Below the pieces are notes generated by a model. The model was not told the origin of the DNA and did no database searches. It worked only from the letters and a program-made list of their open reading frames with translations. Below, in pieces: positions 1,003 through 24,361 of a stretch of DNA of 24,940 bases. Numbering within the stretch: position 1 is the stretch's first letter; every line of letters starts with the position of its first letter. The DNA is taken from positions 1 to 24,940 of the IMG/VR virus record IMGVR_UViG_3300028197_000151, one strand, 5' to 3'. The position numbers and the translations under genes were made by a program. The stretch is from a virus.

Positions 1003-1578
1003 ATGTTAGACTTACTTGATAAAATTCAAAATGAATCTCCTTTGGAAAATGCTCAAAGAAGTAAAGAGAGTCTTGAATGGTTTAAAGGCAGACTTAGAAA
1101 GATAAGACAACCAGTAAATAAACTACTAACTGATGATGATTTTCCTATAGTTAGTAGACCAGAGTTAGGCAGAATGTATATGTATCTTTATGATGCAAAA
1201 TACCAAGATTTGATGCCTTATTGGGATAAATTTCCACTCACTATTGTATTTGACTTACTTACAGACGGTTTTATGGGCATAAATTTACATTACATTGCAC
1301 CAAGATATAGAACTGCATTACTTTTGAGTCTTTATGAGATTGCAGTTGATAACGATGACGATGAAGAACAAAGAGTTGCATTATCTTATCAATTAATTAA
1401 GTCTGTTTCAGGTCTTAGATATGCAAAACCATGTGTAAAGAGATATCTTTACGGTCATGTCAACTCCAGAATAGCAGAAATTCCTATGGAGAATTGGGAC
1501 ATGATGGCAATGTTGCCCTCACAAAAATTTAATGTAAACGCAAACACTGTATATGCAGAAAGTAGAGAGAAATTTTAA
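1003..1578 (+). CDS. Conserved T4-like morphogenesis protein, identity uncertain
   Basis: A 191-aa protein between gp4 and a tail-tube-fold protein. Residues 50-100 carry an aromatic-rich core (YDAKYQDLMPYWDKFPLTI, then DGFMGINLHYIAPRYR). Later come SYQLIKSVSGLRYAKPCVKRYLYGHV and an acidic/aromatic tail. I associate this pattern with T4-like phage genomes beside head and tail completion genes, but cannot name it safely. By position T4 gp53 follows gp4 and has similar length, but the gp53 motifs are absent. The T4 DNA-end protector gp2 is another candidate by neighbourhood. CATAAATA at 989-996 resembles a late promoter but is very close to the start. Its last base is the A of the TAA/ATG overlap with the next gene (TAATG), suggesting translational coupling. 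Confidence 0.85.
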   Translation: MLDLLDKIQNESPLENAQRSKESLEWFKGRLRKIRQPVNKLLTDDDFPIVSRPELGRMYMYLYDAKYQDLMPYWDKFPLTIVFDLLTDGFMGINLHYIAPRYRTALLLSLYEIAVDNDDDEEQRVALSYQLIKSVSGLRYAKPCVKRYLYGHVNSRIAEIPMENWDMMAMLPSQKFNVNANTVYAESREKF

Positions 1579-2261
1579 TGGATATTAATAAGATAAAGGC
1601 CAATTTCGATTCAGGTGCGATGAACAATAGATTCGCAGTTAACATGTTCGGACCTGGTGGCATAAAGTTAGAAGGAGTTAGATGTGAAACTGCATCACTT
1701 CCTGGTAGAAGTTTAACAACAAAAGATTTTGCAACGACAGGAACAATAACAAAAAAAGTCACACAAGTAAATAATACAAATGAAGTAGATTTCTCATTTG
1801 TGTGTGATTCAAGTTTCTTTGATAGATATATCATCGAGGCATGGCAATCTTCTATCTTCACTGCAGAAGACGGAAATAGTATCAAACCAATCTTTAATTA
1901 TCCAAAAGATTATTATGGTACAATAGAAGTAGAACAATTTAGAAGAGATGATTCAATGGCATTAAGATACAAATTTCATGATGCATTTCCAGTCTCTTAC
2001 GAACCAATGGCACTGTCAATGAGTGAAGGTGCCTTATTAAAATTTTCATGCAAATTTGCATTTAAAACATTTGATACTGAATATGGGGATGCCCCTCAAC
2101 TTTCGGTACTAAATAAAGGAAGACGATATCTTGATTTAGCAAGAGAGAGTCTTACAGTTGCTAGTCGATACAACAACAAGTCTAAGGACTTTTTAGGGAA
2201 ACTTAATAACTTAGATTCGGCGGGGTCAAGACTGAGCAATTTACTAGGTGGTGGCATCTAG
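1578..2261 (+). CDS. T4 gp19/gp54-type tail-tube-fold protein
   Basis: This 227-aa protein has the signature of the T4-like tail-tube family: N-terminal NRFAVNMFGPGGIKLEG, then CETASLPGRSLTTKD, GTITKKVTQVNNTNEVDFSFVCD, a WQSSIF helix, a strand around YGTIEVEQF, and DAFPVSYEPMALS near the end. In the family this forms the inner tube or the ring that starts tube growth on the baseplate. Tail-tube proteins of this kind are usually about 160-200 aa; the extra C-terminal 40 residues are Ser/Asn/Lys-rich. Next to gp26 and the tape measure protein, a tube-initiator role (gp54-like) is more likely than the main tube subunit gp19, but sequence alone does not separate them. The start overlaps the previous stop by 1 nt. 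Confidence 0.85.
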   Translation: MDINKIKANFDSGAMNNRFAVNMFGPGGIKLEGVRCETASLPGRSLTTKDFATTGTITKKVTQVNNTNEVDFSFVCDSSFFDRYIIEAWQSSIFTAEDGNSIKPIFNYPKDYYGTIEVEQFRRDDSMALRYKFHDAFPVSYEPMALSMSEGALLKFSCKFAFKTFDTEYGDAPQLSVLNKGRRYLDLARESLTVASRYNNKSKDFLGKLNNLDSAGSRLSNLLGGGI

Positions 2262-2283: not shown

Positions 2284-2985
2284 ATGGGATTACCAATCCA
2301 ATCAGCACCGACATATAAAACGGTGCTACCAAGTAATGGTCTTGAAATAAAGTTTCGACCTTTTCTTGTTAAAGAACAAAAGGTATTGATGTTGGCAAAA
2401 GAGGGTGATGATAAAACTGAATCCCTCGAAGCAGTCAAAAATATGATTAATGATGTTACCTTTGGAGAGATTGATGCGAATGATTTAGCAATGATAGACC
2501 TTGAATGGTTGTTCATTCAAATTCGTACAAAATCTGTTGGTGAAAGTGCAACTGTTAAAATGAAATGTCTGGAAGATGACTGTTCAGGAACAGGTGAGGC
2601 TTTAATCAATTTCGAGGAAGTAGAAGTTAAGGGAGAAATTCTTGACAATACTATAATGGTTAGTGATGATGTTGGAGTAGTTTTGAGATTACTCAAAGTA
2701 GAAGATACTAAAAGTGTACAAGATATGCCTGAAAATGAGGTGATATTTTATCTATTGAATAAGTCTATAGATAGAATCTTTGATGCAGAAAGTGTCTATG
2801 AGAGAACTGATATTAGTGACGCGGATGTAGATGAGTTTATTGAAAACTTAACCTTTGCACAACTAGGATTATTATCGGAATACTTTGAGAAAACTCCTAA
2901 ACTAACGAAAGAAGTAAATTTCAAATGTGAAATTTGCGGAACTCAACAGAGTAGAGTTTTAGAAGGATTACAAAATTTTTTCTAA
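2284..2985 (+). CDS. 26: gp26-like baseplate hub / tail assembly protein (T4_baseplate family)
   Basis: A 233-aa protein of the T4 gp26 family (Pfam T4_baseplate). It begins with a short beta region (YKTVLPSNGLEIKFRPFLVKEQKVL), followed by a helical region around residues 70-85 (DLEWLFIQIR). Two pairs of cysteines, C95/C100 and C215/C218, suggest a zinc ribbon. The protein ends in the family-typical GLQNFF. In T4 gp26 acts in hub assembly together with gp51. GGAG 6 nt before the ATG is a good ribosome site. The last codons overlap a -1 slippery heptamer followed directly by the stop, and a 60-codon open frame follows in the -1 frame (see the next entries). The tape measure gene lies about 600 bp downstream, as for tail assembly chaperones in other tailed phages. 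Confidence 0.9.
   Translation: MGLPIQSAPTYKTVLPSNGLEIKFRPFLVKEQKVLMLAKEGDDKTESLEAVKNMINDVTFGEIDANDLAMIDLEWLFIQIRTKSVGESATVKMKCLEDDCSGTGEALINFEEVEVKGEILDNTIMVSDDVGVVLRLLKVEDTKSVQDMPENEVIFYLLNKSIDRIFDAESVYERTDISDADVDEFIENLTFAQLGLLSEYFEKTPKLTKEVNFKCEICGTQQSRVLEGLQNFF
2976..2982 (+). promoter_or_regulatory. Candidate -1 ribosomal frameshift site T TTT TTC before the gp26 stop
   Basis: In the gp26 frame the sequence reads AAT TTT TTC TAA, so positions 2976-2982 form the heptamer T TTT TTC of the X XXY YYZ class, directly followed by the zero-frame stop. A tandem -1 slip keeps full pairing in the first codon and continues as CTA ATA GCC into a 60-codon open frame. That frame has no ATG until 3039 and no ribosome site there. 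A weak hairpin (GGTGT 3005-3009 with ACACC 3022-3026) lies 22 nt downstream, rather far for a classic stimulator. The site is seen; its use is inference. Confidence 0.6.
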
Positions 2986-3164
2986 TAGCCCTTTCTCACG
3001 AGTCGGTGTATAACTATTATAACACCAACTTTCAGTTGATGCAACATCATAATTATCAATTATCAGAATTAGAAGATATGATGCCGTGGGAGAGGGAGAT
3101 TTATACGAGTCTTCTCTTAAACTACTTAGAACAGGAAAAACAGAGACAGAAAAGTAAACAATAA
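2982..3164 (+). CDS. 51: gp51-like tail assembly extension, probably made by -1 frameshift from gp26
   Basis: An open frame of 60 codons in the -1 frame relative to gp26, beginning at the slippery site and ending with TAA at 3162-3164. The product begins LIALSHESVYNYYNTNFQ and contains NYQLSELEDMMPWEREIY, then an amphipathic Lys/Gln-rich helix. The PWEREIY-type motif is typical of small proteins encoded next to gp26 in T4-like phages (annotated gp51, hub assembly catalyst) and of the C-terminal part of frameshifted tail assembly chaperones. The first ATG in frame is at 3039 without a Shine-Dalgarno and would remove a third of the peptide. The likely product is therefore a gp26-gp51 fusion of about 293 aa, made in small amount besides gp26 itself. 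Confidence 0.6.
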   Translation, partial: LIALSHESVYNYYNTNFQLMQHHNYQLSELEDMMPWEREIYTSLLLNYLEQEKQRQKSKQ

Positions 3165-3206: not shown

Positions 3207-3587
3207 ATGGCAGAAGAACACAAAGACATGTCAAGCAATGAGGTGGAAATTGATTTAGATAAGTATATGGCACTTATCGAAAAACTTGACGCACAAGAAG
3301 ATGTAATCCGAGAAATGAAAGAAGATGCCATTAAGGCAAAACGCGGATTAGAACCACCAAAAAGAAAGTTTATAGATTTGTTCTTAGACGACAATGATTT
3401 GAATGAGAAAGCAATCATCGGATTCATCTCATTCTTTTTAATGATGTGTTTCGGTATAACAGACTTAGTCACAGCACTAGTTTGGGATATAGACTTAAAA
3501 GTCTCTGAAACAATCTATACATCATTTGTAGTAGTCACACTAGGTGCATTTGGAATATCAGAAGCTGGAAAAGCATTCGGTAAATAA
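3207..3587 (+). CDS. Small membrane protein with two predicted helices (between gp26 and tape measure)
   Basis: A 126-aa protein. Residues 1-68 are charged and probably coiled (acidic with KYMALIEKLDAQEDVIREMK). Two hydrophobic segments follow at about 69-92 (IIGFISFFLMMCFGITDLV) and 103-120, joined by a short acidic loop, and it ends in Lys. GGAG 7 nt before the ATG is a good ribosome site. The hydrophobic hairpin could suit a holin, but the place inside the tail block, directly before the tape measure gene, equally suits a tail-tip or DNA-injection membrane protein. No family is recognised. It is co-directional with gp26 and ends 11 bp before the tape measure start. Confidence 0.8.
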   Translation: MAEEHKDMSSNEVEIDLDKYMALIEKLDAQEDVIREMKEDAIKAKRGLEPPKRKFIDLFLDDNDLNEKAIIGFISFFLMMCFGITDLVTALVWDIDLKVSETIYTSFVVVTLGAFGISEAGKAFGK

Positions 3588-3598
3588 AGGAAAATTAA

Positions 3599-5716
3599 AT
3601 GGCAGACGAAGAGATAAAAAAGGTTCGTAAACAGATTTTAGACGAACTCAAAGACGCCCAAAAGAAAGAGAAAAAAATTCGTGCAGAGTTTAATACAGAA
3701 CTTGAAGAGTCTACTGTAGGAACAACTAAAGAATTTAAGAATGTTATCTCTAGTCTCGCTAAAACAAGACCAGAGGCAGCTAAAATTGTTTCTGAGTTTA
3801 AAGGTTTGTCTGCCGACACATTTAAAGGTGCCGTTCTTAATAGAGACCTTATTAAAGGTATGTCTGCTGCGACTGAAATGGCAGAAAAGGGTTGGAGTAA
3901 TCTAACCGAAGAACAACAAGACATTCTATCAGATGTATTTGGTGGACAAGTTGCAAGAATGCAAGGTCTTGAACGAGAAGAAGAGAAATTTACTAACCTT
4001 AGAAAAGAGGCCTTAATAAAACAAGGACAAACTCAACAAAAGATTACCGACTTAGATAAAGTAATGGCAGATGAGAAATCTTCTGCTCTTTCCGATGCAA
4101 TGAAAGCAGTAAAAGATGCAGAAAAGAAAGCAGCGGAAAATGAAACAAAATCACAAGACTTTAAACTACAGGCAAAAATAGAACAGGCTAAAAATGCTCT
4201 TGCAGACGAAGAATCAAACCAAGAAAAGATATTAAAAGAAAAATACAAAGGTCAACAAGAACTATTGTCTAAAGAAATGAAGGACAAAACTTTCTTTGTT
4301 GACCAACATGAAGAATCATTGTCTTCAATTGCACAACACCAAGAGAATGCTTCAAAAGAACTTAAAGCATCTATTGATAAATCTAAAGAAGAACAGATGC
4401 AAGGCCTTTCAAATTTCTCTGATGGTTTTAAAGAACTTGTTGGTTTTGATATCATGGGAACATTCGATGGTGCAACTAAGAAGTTAAATGCACTAGGTAA
4501 AGTTTTCGGTGGAGATGGAGTCTTAGGTGATAAGATTATGGGCAATCTCGGAAGAGTAATGCAAGATGCAGGAAAAGGAATTGGAAAAGCTGCAGGAAGT
4601 CTTAAAAAATCTTTGGGTTCTATGCTTTCAGGAGGCATGACGGCTCTTCGAGGTGCTTTCACGGCCATAGGTACAGGACTCGCAGCAGCGGGAACTGCCT
4701 TAATGACAACACTGACCGCATTCGCTGCTGGTGCCGCTGCATTCATAGGTGGTTTAGCTATGACCGCAGGTGGTCTATTACTTGCCGCTGCACCGTACAT
4801 ACTTGCAGGTATAGCTATTGTAGGTTTAGTCATGGCAGGTATGAAACTATATGAAGAGTCTGAAGGATTCAAGGCAGCGGTCGATACAGTTATAGATTAC
4901 TTCATAGATATTAAAGACTCTATCTTTACAATCTTTGGTGGATTCTTTGACTTCTTTAAAGGTCTATTTACAGGAGACTTCGACCTAATGTTCTCTGGTC
5001 TAAAAGATTCATTTGGTGGATTATGGGATTTAATAAAGGCACCATTTAAAGCAATCGGTAACTTCTTTAAGAATGTATTCGGTATTGACATTGGTAAGTT
5101 TATAAAAGACATGGCAAAGAAACTGTTACCAGATTGGGCAGTCAATCTGATATTCGGCAAAGATGATGAAGCACCGGCAGAAGAAGAACCTTTAAAGGAA
5201 AGAGATAAGTCTAAAGAAGCACTACAAGAACAAAATTTGGCCAGTGCTGAAGAATCTGGATTGTATGAAAAGGTTGGAATGTTTGGTAAGAGTCAAGTAA
5301 ACAAAGACATGATTATCACTGCACCTAATAATCAGTTGAACGCCATTCTTTCTGATGATGATATTGCCGATGAGTCTAAAGAACTAATTCAAAAAGAACT
5401 AGAGGCAAGAAAATCAATCATTGCAGATTATAACGAAGCTAAAACAGCTCTTGCAAATGGTGAGACAAACTTAGCAGACGGTTCTGATGCAAGTCTAGTT
5501 ATGGAATTTGCAGAAGACGATATGGCAAAGAGACGAGGTGATGATATCGAACAAGCAACACAAGATGCAAAACCAAATATAAATGCGGCCGCAGAGGCAG
5601 TTGCTTCAGTTGTTCAACAGAATAATAATAACTCTTCTACTAATGTTTTAGTTCGTAAGGATACTGCTAGAGACGAGAACGATAGATATTATAACGATAT
5701 GGTTGGTGACTTTTAA
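3599..5716 (+). CDS. 29: Tape measure protein (gp29-like tail length determinator)
   Basis: The 705-aa protein has tape-measure architecture. The N-terminal about 270 residues are charged, helical and rich in Lys/Glu/Ala (coiled coil). A long Gly/Ala-rich hydrophobic segment at about 320-415 (for example TALRGAFTAIGTGLAAAGTA and LLLAAAPYILAGIAIVGLV) follows. After it come amphipathic Phe-rich repeats (GGFFDFFKGLF, GNFFKNVFGID) and an acidic C-terminus with a run of Asn. T4 gp29 (about 590 aa) spans the tail tube lumen and sets tail length; the gp26/gp51 position just upstream agrees. The Shine-Dalgarno AAGGA precedes the ATG. Its stop codon overlaps that of the opposing minus-strand gene (5713-5716), with no terminator hairpin in between. 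Exact homology to gp29 is inferred from architecture and synteny. Confidence 0.82.
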   Translation: MADEEIKKVRKQILDELKDAQKKEKKIRAEFNTELEESTVGTTKEFKNVISSLAKTRPEAAKIVSEFKGLSADTFKGAVLNRDLIKGMSAATEMAEKGWSNLTEEQQDILSDVFGGQVARMQGLEREEEKFTNLRKEALIKQGQTQQKITDLDKVMADEKSSALSDAMKAVKDAEKKAAENETKSQDFKLQAKIEQAKNALADEESNQEKILKEKYKGQQELLSKEMKDKTFFVDQHEESLSSIAQHQENASKELKASIDKSKEEQMQGLSNFSDGFKELVGFDIMGTFDGATKKLNALGKVFGGDGVLGDKIMGNLGRVMQDAGKGIGKAAGSLKKSLGSMLSGGMTALRGAFTAIGTGLAAAGTALMTTLTAFAAGAAAFIGGLAMTAGGLLLAAAPYILAGIAIVGLVMAGMKLYEESEGFKAAVDTVIDYFIDIKDSIFTIFGGFFDFFKGLFTGDFDLMFSGLKDSFGGLWDLIKAPFKAIGNFFKNVFGIDIGKFIKDMAKKLLPDWAVNLIFGKDDEAPAEEEPLKERDKSKEALQEQNLASAEESGLYEKVGMFGKSQVNKDMIITAPNNQLNAILSDDDIADESKELIQKELEARKSIIADYNEAKTALANGETNLADGSDASLVMEFAEDDMAKRRGDDIEQATQDAKPNINAAAEAVASVVQQNNNNSSTNVLVRKDTARDENDRYYNDMVGDF

Positions 5717-14136: not shown

Positions 14137-15063
14137 TTATTTAGTAAAGATGAACTCACTTAATTTGGATAAAGTTTCACCATATTGACCATGTGTATTC
14201 TGTCCTAAGAGATTGCAAAACTCTATTTGTTTTAACTCTATGTTATCAGAGTTAAGAATAGTATCAACTCTATTTGTCATAGAACAAAATTCATACACTA
14301 GTGATTCAGATTTCTCTCCAATTTGTTTTTTAATTTCTTCTCTTGTGATTTTTTCTGCATCAAAATTATAATACTCTGTTCCATAGATTGAATGAAACCA
14401 ACATGCCTTTATAACATCTTCACTGAACTCATGCTCTTGAGCAATCTTTCCAGTGGTGAGTAAGTGTTCGAAAAAAGTTCCTCCACTGTGTTCTGCATTC
14501 TTTGTTTGTTGATAGAGATAATCTAAACATGGTGTGGTGTAATTTAGGTCAAAGTATTTAAACACTAACACTCTTCTGATATTACCGAATGTTTTACTTA
14601 GAGGTCTTGCGGCATGTAATAAACTAGAATTAAATATGAATACTCTTCCCTCTTTTGGTAATACTGATTTTATAATTTCATCATTCTCAAATATAACAGT
14701 CTCACCACCCCAATTGATATCCCATTCTTCATTCAAATATATGATTGCTGTCTTTTGAGGAATATTTGAATTTTTAGAATCTACATGTGCCGCTGCATCA
14801 TTACCAAAACAATAACCATTAATGTATGCTCGTTGAATACCCCAACCATCCATGTCTAATTCTTGGTGTATTTTTTCTAAAATTGGTGACCACATTTCAA
14901 CAGACCTCATATCAAAATAAGTATCAAATCCGGCATCACATATGTTGTGATTCCAATGTAAGAATTCTTTTGTGTCGACATTCGAAGGCCAACCATAGTG
15001 AAAGGGTAGAGATTGTTGTGACACTCCTCTGACCAAGTCATTTGAAACCTGTTTAACAATCAT
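14137..15063 (-). CDS. 2OG-Fe(II) oxygenase fused to a C-terminal HD-like domain
   Basis: A 308-aa protein. Residues about 75-175 form a prolyl-4-hydroxylase-like jelly roll: H93-x-D95 (AAHVDSKN), TAIIYLNEEWDINWGGETVIF, H150 in SSLLHAARP, and an Arg pair at 163-164 for 2-oxoglutarate. These are the iron and cofactor ligands. Residues about 190-308 hold a separate helical domain with GGTFFEHLLTTGKIAQEHEF and CWFHSIYGTEYYNFD, resembling HD-like domains with an HSIYGT motif (DUF6817-type, from memory). The ATG overlaps the stop of the SDR gene (TAATG), which in turn overlaps the radical SAM gene, so the three are made together. Substrate unknown; a sugar, nucleotide or peptide are possible. Confidence 0.85.
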   Translation of the reverse strand: MIVKQVSNDLVRGVSQQSLPFHYGWPSNVDTKEFLHWNHNICDAGFDTYFDMRSVEMWSPILEKIHQELDMDGWGIQRAYINGYCFGNDAAAHVDSKNSNIPQKTAIIYLNEEWDINWGGETVIFENDEIIKSVLPKEGRVFIFNSSLLHAARPLSKTFGNIRRVLVFKYFDLNYTTPCLDYLYQQTKNAEHSGGTFFEHLLTTGKIAQEHEFSEDVIKACWFHSIYGTEYYNFDAEKITREEIKKQIGEKSESLVYEFCSMTNRVDTILNSDNIELKQIEFCNLLGQNTHGQYGETLSKLSEFIFTK

Positions 15064-18990: not shown

Positions 18991-19446
18991 TTAGGTCCTC
19001 ACCATATTATATTGTGTAAAATCACCAATGTTGTCCATCAATTCATTCAATCTATGCTCTCTAAGATAATCAAATACTTTACCACTCGGTGGTGTAGACT
19101 CACCAAAACAGTCAAGAATATTTTCTACGACATCATCTGGTATAAATTCTAAGTCAATCAAAGTTTGATTTCTTAAATAGTTCCGATAGTATTTATCGTC
19201 CTTTTCAATGCTAATCCTGAGGTACTTATCGACTACAGGTTTTCTTAAAGGGGTTTGTCTGATACCTTCATCTAAACAATTGTCTGCTGATAGTATATTT
19301 GGTATACCGTCTGACTTATCTCCTCTGAGAATGTGTTCTTTTAGAAATGTATCTGCATCATCTGGTGCAACGAACTTGTTTAGATTAGGAGACCATTGTT
19401 TTACATAGTCATACTTCTGCAACTGTTGGAAGTCCTTATCACCTGA
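18991..19446 (-). CDS. rnh: RNase H (T4 rnh-like), C-terminal fragment after a frameshift
   Basis: This frame is open from the TCA codon at 19444-19446 and continues the RNase H sequence: SGDKDFQQLQKYDYVKQWSP, then HILRGDKSDGIPNIL, a region matching T4 RNase H RTPSMKTSIVE (QTPLRKPVVD), TLIDLEFIPDDVVENIL and PPSGKVFDYLREHRL. It holds two of the acidic metal ligands (the D residues of SGDKDF) and the helix-hairpin region. No start codon with a ribosome site exists near its beginning (a TTG at 19420-19422 would drop SGDKDF). It is therefore not a gene of its own but the second half of an interrupted rnh. Its N-terminal part is the next entry. Confidence 0.85.
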   Translation of the reverse strand, partial: SGDKDFQQLQKYDYVKQWSPNLNKFVAPDDADTFLKEHILRGDKSDGIPNILSADNCLDEGIRQTPLRKPVVDKYLRISIEKDDKYYRNYLRNQTLIDLEFIPDDVVENILDCFGESTPPSGKVFDYLREHRLNELMDNIGDFTQYNMVRT

Positions 19447-19840
19447 TTAGGACTGGTTCCTTTGAATGTTTAGTTAGAACTGCAATGATATCATCAGCCT
19501 CACATCTTTCGACATACAGGTAGTGGTAGGGAAAGTTATCTCTTATCTCGTCTTTAACTTTCTGCAGTGTGTCGAAGATAAGTTTCCAATCCATATCAGA
19601 TGCATCTCTTGTCTTCTTACGGTTTGCTTTGTATTGTGGAAAGTATTCTCGTCTCCAAGGATTACTTGCATCAGTACATAGAACTATTTGTCCATACTGA
19701 GACGAGTATCGTTTACTGTAATTTCTTACAGAGTTTAGAATCATGTGTCTTAACATATCTTCGTTAATCTCACCATCATTCATTTTGAGTTGTGCCATCA
19801 GACCTGCTATTATGGTCTGAGTAAAATCTATTAGTATCAT
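19439..19840 (-). CDS. rnh: RNase H / 5'-3' exonuclease (T4 rnh-like), N-terminal fragment
   Basis: 133 aa matching the first half of T4 RNase H (305 aa), the flap-type 5' nuclease that removes RNA primers. It begins MILIDFTQTIIAGLMAQLKM with D5 as a metal ligand, then RHMILNSVRNYSKRYSSQYG, QIVLCTDASNPWRREYFPQY with D57, KANRKKTRD, and CEADDIIAVLTKH with the acidic ligands E114/D116/D117. It ends in VLIR and a TGA, where the family continues VLIISGDKDF. The rest is encoded in another frame right after it. A 2-nt loss in a TCTC dinucleotide repeat explains the break exactly. Start and upstream stop overlap as ATGA. Confidence 0.88.
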   Translation of the reverse strand: MILIDFTQTIIAGLMAQLKMNDGEINEDMLRHMILNSVRNYSKRYSSQYGQIVLCTDASNPWRREYFPQYKANRKKTRDASDMDWKLIFDTLQKVKDEIRDNFPYHYLYVERCEADDIIAVLTKHSKEPVLIR

Positions 19841-20547
19841 TTAATCACTTTTATTAATAATGTATTCTTAGTAATTCTATTGTTTCCTTCTTTCTCTTTA
19901 GAACGAGGTATCTCGTCCATGAAACCTTTAGCAATAATATTACCACCTGATACCAGTCTATCAAGTAAAGTTAAATCTGTCAAGGTCTTTTCTATACATT
20001 CGTCTGCATCTATTATCTTACTACCATTCACTCTAAGACCACCATAGGATTTAAACATGGTAAGTTTCTTTGTGGATGTGTTGTATCCAAACAACAACGA
20101 TGCACGAATGATATCCTCTGGATTTATGGATTTATATTTCTTCCACTCTGAAAGATAAGGAAGTTTCTTTACTAACTGTGCTGGGGTTTTAGGTTTAGGT
20201 GGTTTACGAACTGGTGTATACTCTGCAATATACTTTTCAATATCGGTTTCAAACTCTTTAAGTTTCTTTATAATCTTTGTCTTCTGACCTTTAGTAAGGA
20301 AGTTATATGCCTCATCTAATTGAGGACAACCTTCTTTGTTGGTCATCTCGTATTGCATTTCTTCTGTAAACCCTTTCATGTATGCAACAACTTTACCAGA
20401 GTAATCTAATTGTTTGAGATACTTGTACATAGAGAAAGGTATGGACTTCTTATCCATAAGAGTATCGATTTGTGCTTCGACTTCGTCTAAGGCACCAATG
20501 GCCTTATTCTTCATTCTCTCTTGTATACTAACCGTTTGCGTGTTCAT
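19837..20547 (-). CDS. Hypothetical protein upstream of RNase H
   Basis: A 236-aa basic, mostly helical protein: MNTQTVSIQERMKNKAIGAL, KSIPFSMYKYLKQLDYSGKV, a Lys-rich middle with PVRKPPKPKTPAQLVKKLPY, then EDIIRASLLFGYNTSTKKLT and a C-terminal region with KSYGGLRVNGSKIIDADECI, ENNRITKN-like ending in TLLIKVIK. The blocks DYSGKVVAYM, LFGYNTSTKKLT and GLRVNGSKIIDADE look conserved, and I have seen a similar protein next to rnh in T4-like cyanophages, without function. It starts 20 nt inside the end of the RimK-like gene and its stop overlaps the RNase H start. Confidence 0.82.
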   Translation of the reverse strand: MNTQTVSIQERMKNKAIGALDEVEAQIDTLMDKKSIPFSMYKYLKQLDYSGKVVAYMKGFTEEMQYEMTNKEGCPQLDEAYNFLTKGQKTKIIKKLKEFETDIEKYIAEYTPVRKPPKPKTPAQLVKKLPYLSEWKKYKSINPEDIIRASLLFGYNTSTKKLTMFKSYGGLRVNGSKIIDADECIEKTLTDLTLLDRLVSGGNIIAKGFMDEIPRSKEKEGNNRITKNTLLIKVIK

Positions 20548-21919
20548 CGTTTCTATTTGTTAACATAAATTTACGAGCAGGATTTATCATCAAGTTTGCT
20601 CTCTTCATAAAGTCTCTGTTAGCAAGAAAAGGTATTTGATTCCTTTTATCTAACGAAACTTCTATTTCATAAATTGTATTTAGAAAATTTATTTCCAATA
20701 GAACGACTGGCCTTTTTTCGGCAGGTTTTAACAACTCTACATATCGATGTAGAGGTTCTTTGTATTTTACTCCTTCGGTAGTCCATGAGACTACTTTATT
20801 TTTCACGGTTAAATCATCCGCGTGCAAGGCACATGTCGTTGTATTATTACCAGTATCCATCTTAACAGTTAGTTCCTGTCCTTCAACTTCTAATGTTTCT
20901 AATACACCACATTCTGTTGCACTTCGTTTCCATGAATCTCTGTCGAGGAGATTATCTAAAACAATTTTATTAATATCACCATCAATTACTTTGTTGATAC
21001 CTTCGGTACCAGGTGAATGGTTAACTTCGATAATGAATGGTGAGTCTTTATCTCTGTTCTTTGCTGGCATAAAGTCTACACCAACCCATTGTCCGTTCAC
21101 CGCTTTGGCTGCCTGTAAGACTGCCTCTTGTTCAACTTCAGTAAGTTTAATCTCTTCAGGTTCAGAACCTTGTGAAACATTACTTCTAAAGTCGTCAAGT
21201 ATCTTAGGTCGTTTCATCGCACCTATGATTTCTTTGTTCACAACAATACATCTAACATCGTAATCAACTTCAATGTATTCTTGTAATAGTATATCTGCAT
21301 AAGGGTCAATCTTATAAACCAACTGAACGGTTGATTGTAATGACCTTTCTGTTTCAATCAATAGAACACCAACACCTTTACTTCCTTGTAGTGTCTTTAA
21401 CACCATAGGGAACTTAGACTTCAATGCCTCATGGGCAGTCTCTATTGATTCTTTATCTGCATTTGGTATCAGTACGGTCTTAGGTTGATTCATACCAATC
21501 TCTTGCAGTCTAAGATAACATCTAAACTTATCTGCACATACTTCAATTGTTTCTCTGAAGTTGCAAACAGGAATACCATATCTTTCTAATTGAGATACTA
21601 AATCCAGATATGAATCTTTTTTACCAACTGCACCACGAATGATTACAACTGTATCTTCATCGATTTCAAATCCAAATGAATCATCTTCTTTGTGTATAGT
21701 TATGGTACCTTTATCTTCATCACGCATGATGAATGCACCATTGACACGACAATCATATACTTCGTGTCCTAGTTTCTCTGCAAGTTTAACTAACTTTGCA
21801 CTCGTCGCTTTAGGGTTTGACTTCTTCGGTTTTTCTGCGAGTACAACCAGACGATAAGGATTTTTAGCATCCTTATTCTCCGTTATTGTTTGCAACTCAT
21901 TAAAACTTTTAATCATCAA
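20528..21919 (-). CDS. RimK-like ATP-grasp ligase fused to a RimB-like (zinc/aspartic) protease domain
   Basis: A 463-aa two-domain protein. Residues about 20-325 are RimK-type ATP-grasp: RLVVLAEKPKKSNPKATSAK, VVIIRGAVGKKDSYLDLVSQ, ADKFRCYLRLQEIGMNQPKT, VLKTLQGSKGVGVLLIE (ATP-lysine region), LLQEYIEVDYDVRCIVV, and FIIEVNHSPGTEGI with the metal ligands E298 and N300. In bacteria RimK adds glutamates to the C-terminus of ribosomal protein bS6. Residues about 345-460 match the RimB-like protease family: VKMDTGNNTTTCALHADDL with the DTG motif at 355-357, RPVVLLEINFLNTIYEIEVS and FLANRDFMKR. In Escherichia coli RimB and RimK are separate proteins. A second ATG is one codon downstream of the first. 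Substrate in this phage is unknown. Confidence 0.9.
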   Translation of the reverse strand: MMIKSFNELQTITENKDAKNPYRLVVLAEKPKKSNPKATSAKLVKLAEKLGHEVYDCRVNGAFIMRDEDKGTITIHKEDDSFGFEIDEDTVVIIRGAVGKKDSYLDLVSQLERYGIPVCNFRETIEVCADKFRCYLRLQEIGMNQPKTVLIPNADKESIETAHEALKSKFPMVLKTLQGSKGVGVLLIETERSLQSTVQLVYKIDPYADILLQEYIEVDYDVRCIVVNKEIIGAMKRPKILDDFRSNVSQGSEPEEIKLTEVEQEAVLQAAKAVNGQWVGVDFMPAKNRDKDSPFIIEVNHSPGTEGINKVIDGDINKIVLDNLLDRDSWKRSATECGVLETLEVEGQELTVKMDTGNNTTTCALHADDLTVKNKVVSWTTEGVKYKEPLHRYVELLKPAEKRPVVLLEINFLNTIYEIEVSLDKRNQIPFLANRDFMKRANLMINPARKFMLTNRNDEHANG

Positions 21920-22578: not shown

Positions 22579-23199
22579 TTATTCGTTTGAGTCCTGTTCC
22601 TCGAATAAACTTACTTTCTTAGGTTTAATCATTGTGTAAGGTATATGAATGTCTTGGTCTTCAGGCACATACAAATAATTAATCTGACTGTTCTGACATG
22701 TTGTGATTGCATCTTCGATTGTCTCGACCAATGCCTCACCACCTAGATTGAATGATGTATTAAATATCATTGGACAACCTGTGATGTTATAGAATGCTTC
22801 TATGAGTTCGTAATAGTTTTTGTTCTGTTCTTTTGTGACTGTTTGTATTCTACAAGTACCGTCTGCATGAACTAAACTAGGAACATCTCTGTATGCTTTC
22901 TCTCTTGCTTGTATCGCAAAGGACATCCAAGGTGATTCTTTTAATTGTTTCATGTCGAAGTAATCGTTTGCATGTTCTAACATAACTGAACCTGCAAATG
23001 GTCTATAGTCTTCTCTTTGTTTAACTGTATTCACAATTTGTTTTGCCATAGGATTTCTAGGGTCAAATAATATACTACGATTACCTAATGCACGAGGACC
23101 CCATTCGGATTCTCCTTGAAAGATTGCAACGATTTGTGCTCTGTCAATCAGTAAGTCAACGACTGTATCTAAGTCTCTTATAATTTTAGTCTTTATCAT
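22579..23199 (-). CDS. Carbamoyltransferase, C-terminal domain as a separate gene
   Basis: From ATG 23197-23199 (AGGAG 7 nt upstream) this gives 206 aa forming the C-terminal domain of the NodU/CmcH/TobZ carbamoyltransferase family: IFQGESEWGPRALGNRSILF, DPRNPMAKQIVNTVKQREDY, RPFAGSVMLEHA and MIFNTSFNLGGEALVETIED are the hallmark blocks. In the full enzyme this YrdC-like domain makes carbamoyl-AMP and the N-terminal Kae1-like domain transfers the carbamoyl group. The N-terminal gene ends 14 nt inside this gene. Sum of lengths (391+206) equals a normal single-chain enzyme. A frame to 23274 is open but its extra residues are not part of the family. Confidence 0.9.
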   Translation of the reverse strand: MIKTKIIRDLDTVVDLLIDRAQIVAIFQGESEWGPRALGNRSILFDPRNPMAKQIVNTVKQREDYRPFAGSVMLEHANDYFDMKQLKESPWMSFAIQAREKAYRDVPSLVHADGTCRIQTVTKEQNKNYYELIEAFYNITGCPMIFNTSFNLGGEALVETIEDAITTCQNSQINYLYVPEDQDIHIPYTMIKPKKVSLFEEQDSNE

Positions 23200-24361
23200 T
23201 TTGTTCTCCTGGAGGATTTGCAACCAGTGTTCGTTCAAACCAGAGGGCTGCACCTGCAGCGGTACCTCCGTCATGTGGCATAGGGTCTACAAAGAACTGG
23301 TGTTCTGGAAAGGCATCGAGATACTTATAGTTGTTCGTGCAATTGAGAGAGTATCCACCACTGAGAACAATGTTCTTACAATCTGGATTCGCATCGACTG
23401 CCATCTGAATTGTTTTAATTGATTCTGCTAGTGTTTTCTCTTCGAGTTCTTGTGCAACTGAGAAGTTATTAAATACACCTGTCTCACTAATTGATTTGGC
23501 GTATGAGGCAAGACCCATAACTTTACCTGCACCTGTACCGATTTCGTCACAACCTAATGCAACTGACATCTGACTGAAGTTCATACCACTTGAAGGTGCT
23601 GATGTGAATTCTAATTCGACACCATCTTTGTTTACGACTAGGGGTTCCATACAATGAAATGCATCGAACGCCATGTTAGGGAACTGCCAACCTATATCGG
23701 ACACCATACGATGATTAGATAATTTCTGGTACTGGAGTTCTGGTTCCATACCAGGTTTGCATAAGTAGACTGAATCAGTCTCTTGATAAGAAGGATACTC
23801 ATCGTGATACCTCATGGCACCACCACCATCCCAAACGATTGCGATTGCATCTTCGTTGTTCTTATAGTAAGGACTTAAATGATACCCACACTCTGCATGA
23901 TAGAAGTGATGTTCAGGTTCACAATGATAGTTTTCTAAATTCCAATGATAACCTGCTAACATATCTGCAATCTCAAAGTCTCTATCACCTAGGTTATCTG
24001 ATAGGTCGACATACTTGCCGTATGTCTCCATTAAAAATTCTATTCGTTCTCTTGTCAACTGTTCTGCACTGACATCTTTTGCAAACTGTTCTGCGAGAAG
24101 TCTATCTTCAATCAGTTGTGGGTCATCGATTGACCATACGAGATTTGCCCTATGGAAGGTTGCAAAGATTAAATGGTCTGGTTCTTGTATGTTCGACTGG
24201 TCAATACACTGAAGGCCTTTATCGTGTTGAGCATCCAGTTTATCGGGGTCCCAAAATTTATGTCTACGAAATCTTGCCTCGTCATGACAATACTTTAGTT
24301 CTCCGTTTTCAACTTCTGCTACCGATGTGTCGTGTGAAATATTTATTCCAATGATTCTCAT
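23186..24361 (-). CDS. Carbamoyltransferase, N-terminal (Kae1-like) domain as a separate gene
   Basis: 391 aa that match the N-terminal domain of NodU/CmcH-type carbamoyltransferases: MRIIGINISHDTSVAEVENG, HHFYHAECGYHLSPYY (His cluster at 151-161), AIVWDGGGAM (D178), GTGAGKVMGLASYAKS, LSGGYSLNCTNNYKYLDAF and PMPHDGGTAAGAALWF. These include the His/Asp metal site and the nucleotide loops of the Kae1/HSP70-like fold. The protein stops right after the domain with a short tail (GEQNDKD) and the C-terminal domain gene starts on an overlapping ATG with its own ribosome site. So the split looks organised rather than decayed. Substrate could be a sugar, an antibiotic-like compound, or a hydroxymethylated base; unknown. 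Confidence 0.9.
   Translation of the reverse strand: MRIIGINISHDTSVAEVENGELKYCHDEARFRRHKFWDPDKLDAQHDKGLQCIDQSNIQEPDHLIFATFHRANLVWSIDDPQLIEDRLLAEQFAKDVSAEQLTRERIEFLMETYGKYVDLSDNLGDRDFEIADMLAGYHWNLENYHCEPEHHFYHAECGYHLSPYYKNNEDAIAIVWDGGGAMRYHDEYPSYQETDSVYLCKPGMEPELQYQKLSNHRMVSDIGWQFPNMAFDAFHCMEPLVVNKDGVELEFTSAPSSGMNFSQMSVALGCDEIGTGAGKVMGLASYAKSISETGVFNNFSVAQELEEKTLAESIKTIQMAVDANPDCKNIVLSGGYSLNCTNNYKYLDAFPEHQFFVDPMPHDGGTAAGAALWFERTLVANPPGEQNDKD

Follow-up and report, generated by a model that had tools for sequence, protein, structure and literature searches.

The gp26 gene and the open frame downstream of it very probably form a single tail-assembly chaperone (TAC) gene with a predicted -1 frameshift, judging from sequence comparison and structure modeling of the window, i.e., the whole 24,940-nt stretch of viral DNA analyzed, which comes from an uncultivated marine T4-like phage. 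Programmed -1 frameshifting between gp26 and gp51 had been proposed in the initial annotation, and this proposal gained support from the retained heptamer, the poor downstream starts, and the homology running through the slip site. The majority of ribosomes would stop at TAA 2983 and release the 233-aa gp26 (TAC-N). A minority would shift into the -1 frame at T TTT TTC, with the P- and A-site Phe tRNAs re-pairing with TTT TTT, and would read on to 3164, yielding a predicted 293-aa gp26-gp51 fusion (TAC-NC). Slippage would probably be aided by an upstream Shine–Dalgarno (SD)-like element, AGAAGGA, and perhaps also by the TAA that immediately follows the heptamer. If the analogy with gpG/gpGT of lambda holds, the gp26 domain may bind the tape measure, and the gp51 tail may recruit tail-tube subunits. 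The computed basis comprises the anatomy of the locus and its conservation, the selection acting on the -1 frame, the homology between T4 gp51 and a virtual fusion, and a fold match to the HK97 TAC; the occurrence and rate of frameshifting are inferred, as are the roles of the SD-like element and of the stop codon and, for this phage, a chaperone function with its partners.

Anatomy and conservation of the slip site

Table 1. Features of the gp26-gp51 locus and of the neighboring genes (positions in the window).
Feature	Position	Strand	Basis or remark
Tail-tube-like gene, directly upstream of gp26	1578..2261	+	phrog_45 tail tube, 3.9e-26
gp26 (233 aa), probable short form of the tail-assembly chaperone (TAC-N)	2284..2985	+	Pfam, PHROG, fold match
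SD-like AGAAGGA, candidate stimulator	2961..2967	+	8 nt upstream of heptamer; anti-SD pairing
Slippery heptamer T TTT TTC	2976..2982	+	Sequence; T TTT TTN across relatives
0-frame stop TAA, directly 3' of heptamer	2983..2985	+	Sequence
gp51, putative -1 frame extension, 60 codons and stop	2982..3164	+	phrog_634, phrog_150 C-terminus, pN/pS
Predicted hairpin, weak, 17 nt past heptamer	3000..3031	+	80-nt fold, z -2.38 (dinucleotide shuffling)
126-codon ORF, good SD, no clear family	3207..3587	+	Between chaperone locus and probable tape measure
Probable tape-measure gene, 705 aa, one gene downstream	3599..5716	+	Weak tape-measure PHROG matches, best 8.7e-5

The 3' end of gp26 (2284-2985) reads CAA AAT TTT TTC TAA. 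The heptamer that the initial annotation placed right before the gp26 stop was confirmed in letters and coordinates, as were the 60-codon -1 frame continuing from it (open at 2955-3164, with the stop codon at 3162-3164) and the lack of an ATG for 57 nt after it: the first start codon of the -1 frame is GTG 3006, 24 nt past the heptamer, and the first ATG is at 3039. In the A+T-rich window, 14 TTTTTTY runs were found versus 35 expected; such a run by itself is ordinary here, and it is the position, frame, and conservation of the heptamer that go beyond chance.

Gp26 matched Pfam T4_baseplate (PF12322, 1.3e-49) and phrog_150 (baseplate hub, 1.4e-53). The -1 frame, read from the heptamer, matched phrog_634, "baseplate hub assembly catalyst" (gp51), at 8.8e-26, and also the C-terminus of phrog_150 (3.5e-6), which means that the phrog_150 model already extends beyond the gp26 stop. 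The gp51-family homology of the -1 frame begins at the slip site, and in a tblastn search with this frame, phage records matched from residue 1, spanning the ends of their annotated gp26.

All 80 of the IMG/VR relatives (gp26 identity 33-100%) had an in-phase T TTT TTN closing gp26, together with an open -1 frame encoding LSHDSxxNYYxTNF...PWEREIY. When this set was widened by further loci and by annotated phages, T TTT TTN lay within the last four gp26 codons at 179 of 188 loci, a set that counts the window twice (once as L081); it was also present in 11 of 12 further phage records, spanning 33-53% G+C. The conservation in relatives on which the proposed frameshift hinged is thus present. The further carriers included Vibrio phi-ST2, Aeromonas AS-yj, five Pootjesviridae genera, and Synechococcus S-CRM01. 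Overall, the heptamer was found in Kyanoviridae, Straboviridae (Cinqassovirus, Ceceduovirus, Schizotequatrovirus), Pootjesviridae, Menderavirus, and a Nitratidesulfovibrio phage, the carriers being marine, Aeromonas, Vibrio, Rhizobium, Stenotrophomonas, and Nitratidesulfovibrio phages. Viral scans with gp26 of SRB7757 and of ORM_20 found no relatives.

Dereplication of the 188 heptamer loci gave 76 representatives, chosen by heptamer presence and sharing kinship, so that counts within this set are not independent and the fair denominators are 179/188 and 11/12. The codon preceding the heptamer ended in T in 76/76 of these representatives, and the first Phe of the heptamer was likewise TTT in all of them, compared with 40-95% TTT in other Phe columns; the second Phe of the site was TTT in 16% and mostly TTC. 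The last base of the heptamer was C in 51 representatives, A in 12, T in 10, and G in 3.

The nine loci without the heptamer were six T4-type records, one truncated T4-type piece, Vibrio phage K444, and Stenotrophomonas phage IME-SM1. The latter has five Ts at the slip site, one fewer than the six of YB07 and Moby, its sister phages; its annotated gp26 is therefore wrongly extended, and the one-T deletion is probably a homopolymer sequencing error. In Vibrio phages K444 and K471, both devoid of the heptamer, a start codon overlaps the gp26 stop, possibly a natural switch to separate translation.

Selection and start signals in the downstream frame

Over the first 17 codons past the heptamer, the -1 frame of 23 marine relatives had a pN/pS of 0.29, and the two other frames had 1.8 and 1.4; in the window's own clade, the values were 0.17 versus 4.7 and 1.3. 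The peptide ahead of any ATG is under purifying selection, and in the -1 frame only.

This peptide lies upstream of ATG 3039 and partly upstream of GTG 3006, so it would be lost, wholly or partly, if gp51 were a gene of its own, started at one of these codons or by re-initiation past the gp26 stop. The potential starts at 24 and 57 nt past the heptamer, the annotation of gp51 as a separate gene in GenBank records, and the overlapping starts of the heptamer-less Vibrio phages K444 and K471 agree with such an arrangement; however, initiation at ATG 3039 would remove the conserved, selected LIALSHESVYNYYNTNF stretch, and initiation at GTG 3006 would remove LIALSHES. Anti-SD pairing in the window was -5.9 kcal/mol at the gp26 start and at 3207, and -5.6 at 3599; no SD was detected by this measure at GTG 3006 (-1.8 kcal/mol) or ATG 3039 (+1.6). 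Mean pairing across 74 representatives came to -4.2 at gp26 starts and to -0.7 at the first ATG of the -1 frame. Only 26 of the 76 representatives had an ATG no more than 15 nt from the slip site, and the heptamer was retained even in those. An independent start as the main route was ruled out by the SD and selection tests, and a separate gp51 gene appears highly improbable.

The frameshifted gp26-gp51 reading has to accommodate P-SSM2, S-PM2, phiM9, and L044, which keep the heptamer and carry an ATG just past it, so some separate initiation may occur there. The expectation that relatives would lack a start for the downstream frame holds for most of them, which have no good start or ribosome site, but not for those with an ATG after the heptamer; the suggestion that gp51 exists mainly as a gp26 fusion fits the window as a prediction. 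The initial annotation also saw no ribosome site for the -1 frame; this is correct for the two start codons, but an SD-like sequence does lie upstream of the heptamer.

Many GenBank records of cyanophages and marine phages either list gp51 as a gene of its own, named "baseplate hub assembly catalyst", or omit it, and none of the public phage records compared bears a frameshift mark on this locus. We suggest that gp51 should be annotated as a frameshift extension of gp26.

Candidate stimulators of frameshifting

SD-like stimulators of -1 frameshifting sit about where AGAAGGA lies. In Escherichia coli dnaX, the heptamer A AAA AAG is accompanied by an SD-like element upstream and a hairpin downstream. 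The slippery heptamer and the SD-like element about 8-10 nt upstream are common to dnaX and the gp26-gp51 locus, and by this analogy AGAAGGA probably helps slippage; a hairpin 4-6 nt downstream is found here in relatives, whereas the window has no convincing close hairpin. Most relatives have an SD-like element at the same place: mean pairing at this position in the 76 representatives was -6.4, and each of the 60 synonymous-codon shuffles gave a mean between -4.7 and -5.4.

The predicted hairpin of the window had a z of only -0.77 against synonymous codon resampling, i.e., it is no stronger than the protein sequence forces. For this reason it is not claimed as a stimulator, and it is probably not a needed one. 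In relatives, 66-nt downstream folds had a mean z of -1.42 by synonymous resampling, with 38% below -2, compared with -0.27 and 6% for gp26 control segments in the same test. In several relatives, a hairpin lies 4-6 nt past the heptamer. In the P-SSM2 type, an 11-bp hairpin starts 5 nt past the heptamer and is nearly invariant over 18 sequences; since its 11 pairs show almost no variation, it is uninformative on covariation. In a second group, an 8-bp hairpin likewise starts 5 nt past the heptamer, and two of its pairs show compensatory changes (A-U to U-A and G-C; A-U to G-C); 95.8% of its cells were paired and 6 of 500 shuffles reached as high, the covariation evidence being confined to this one small group of six sequences. 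No convincing close hairpin was found among the 66-nt folds of the window or of most relatives with the stop directly after the heptamer.

We tentatively propose that one homologous chaperone gene with the same T TTT TTN might combine a common SD-like element upstream with lineage-specific stimulators. Several lineages (P-SSM2 type, L036/L049/L064 type) would use a hairpin 4-6 nt past the heptamer, and the window lineage, which has no close hairpin, would use the stop that immediately follows the heptamer; Tevenvirinae would have exchanged the device for a separate full-length gene. Lineage-specific stimulators are a less explored part of a known kind of device.

The upstream SD-like element and the hairpins downstream in relatives are translational features, which argues against slippage of RNA polymerase on the T run, whereby part of the mRNA would already have the frames joined. 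Six or seven Ts in a row and a similar product are what such slippage would call for, but six Ts are short for it, and what is conserved is an X XXY YYZ in phase whose last base is free (C, A, T, or G); transcriptional slippage therefore has barely a chance of being the explanation. An indel error or gene decay that split one frame into two, despite the real indel in the RNase H gene of the window and the probable one-T deletion of IME-SM1 at this very site, was ruled out by the same heptamer and frame relation in 188 loci, many of them from cultured phages, and is opposed by the purifying selection on the -1 frame.

Proposed chaperone identity and relation to known systems

The AlphaFold model of gp26 had a mean pLDDT of 86.6. 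The best PDB match of residues 1-84 was the HK97 tail assembly chaperone 2ob9, with a Z of 7.0 over 79 residues and an rmsd of 3.1, which is moderate evidence, being under Z 8 and seen only on realignment; the next match had a Z of 3.0. Foldseek of the gp26 model against PDB gave no significant match, and a PDB sequence search found no relatives. We regard a TAC fold of the N-terminal part of gp26 as moderately supported by the model. The two proteins share 13% identity, and gp26 has a large extra C-terminal part.

The initial annotation placed the locus just upstream of the tape measure gene; it does precede the probable tape-measure gene, but a 126-codon gene (3207-3587) intervenes. A small ORF is present at the equivalent position in phage Melnitz-3. 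A tail chaperone locus would be consistent with the gene order here, in which a tail-tube-like gene, gp26-gp51, the small gene, and the probable tape measure follow one another.

A profile of the virtual gp26-gp51 fusion matched T4 gp26 (5.4e-27) up to the slip site and T4 gp51 (1.1e-17) over almost its full length, the extension included. T4 gp51 is therefore a full-length long form with its own gene, in which a gp26-like domain and the gp51 tail are combined, so the predicted frameshift here would make what T4 encodes separately. The T4 genes are separate and adjacent, as the initial annotation had it, but lie on opposite strands, whereas here one gene with a predicted frameshift would supply both products. 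The two arrangements offer a natural contrast between two routes to a short and a long tail chaperone.

Many tailed phages make tail-assembly chaperones by frameshift. Lambda G/GT consists of a short protein and a -1 extension, is located between the tail-tube gene and the tape measure, and has the heptamer G GGA AAG; Xu, Hendrix and Duda reportedly described the tail-assembly chaperone frameshift of lambda G/GT and relatives in 2004. The locus of the window is similar in having a short protein with a putative -1 extension, in following a tail-tube-like gene, and in standing ahead of a probable tape measure; it differs in its heptamer (T TTT TTC), in protein sequence, and in the small gene before the tape measure. 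Vladimirov, Gautam and Davidson are said to have treated the TAC genes of T4-like phages, gp26/gp51, in 2022 (Virology 566:9-15).

The relevant passage of PMC12846349 cites Vladimirov for slippery poly-T stretches in the TAC-N genes of T4-like phages, and PMC10885494 likewise, where it touches on the subject, cites Vladimirov et al. on TAC genes of T4-like phages. With poly-T slippery TAC-N genes of such phages already published, by these accounts, the predicted gp26-gp51 frameshift is a new, well-supported example of a known trick. For phage Adele (Vandenendeviridae/Andersonviridae), the corresponding passage of PMC12846349 gives a TAC locus with a GTTTTT slip site, inferred from conservation; as described there, it has in common with the present locus a -1 TAC extension and a T-rich slip site, and the phage families differ.

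Several other genes of the window, all on the minus strand, deserve mention. A T4-type RNase H/exonuclease gene (18991-19840) is split into two ORFs because it lacks 4 bases present in ten close relatives, where it is intact (278-284 aa); the deletion is either an assembly error or a real lesion. A NodU-like carbamoyltransferase (22579-24361) is represented by overlapping ORFs, the N-terminal at 23186-24361 and the C-terminal at 22579-23274, the latter with an in-frame ATG overlapping the end of the former; since a C-domain-only PHROG exists, a genuine split gene is plausible. An ATP-grasp RimK-like protein is encoded at 20528-21919, with a weak C-terminal match to the ATP-dependent zinc protease family, and one protein encoded at 14137-15063 combines a 2OG-Fe(II) oxygenase-like domain with a DUF6817/HD-like domain.
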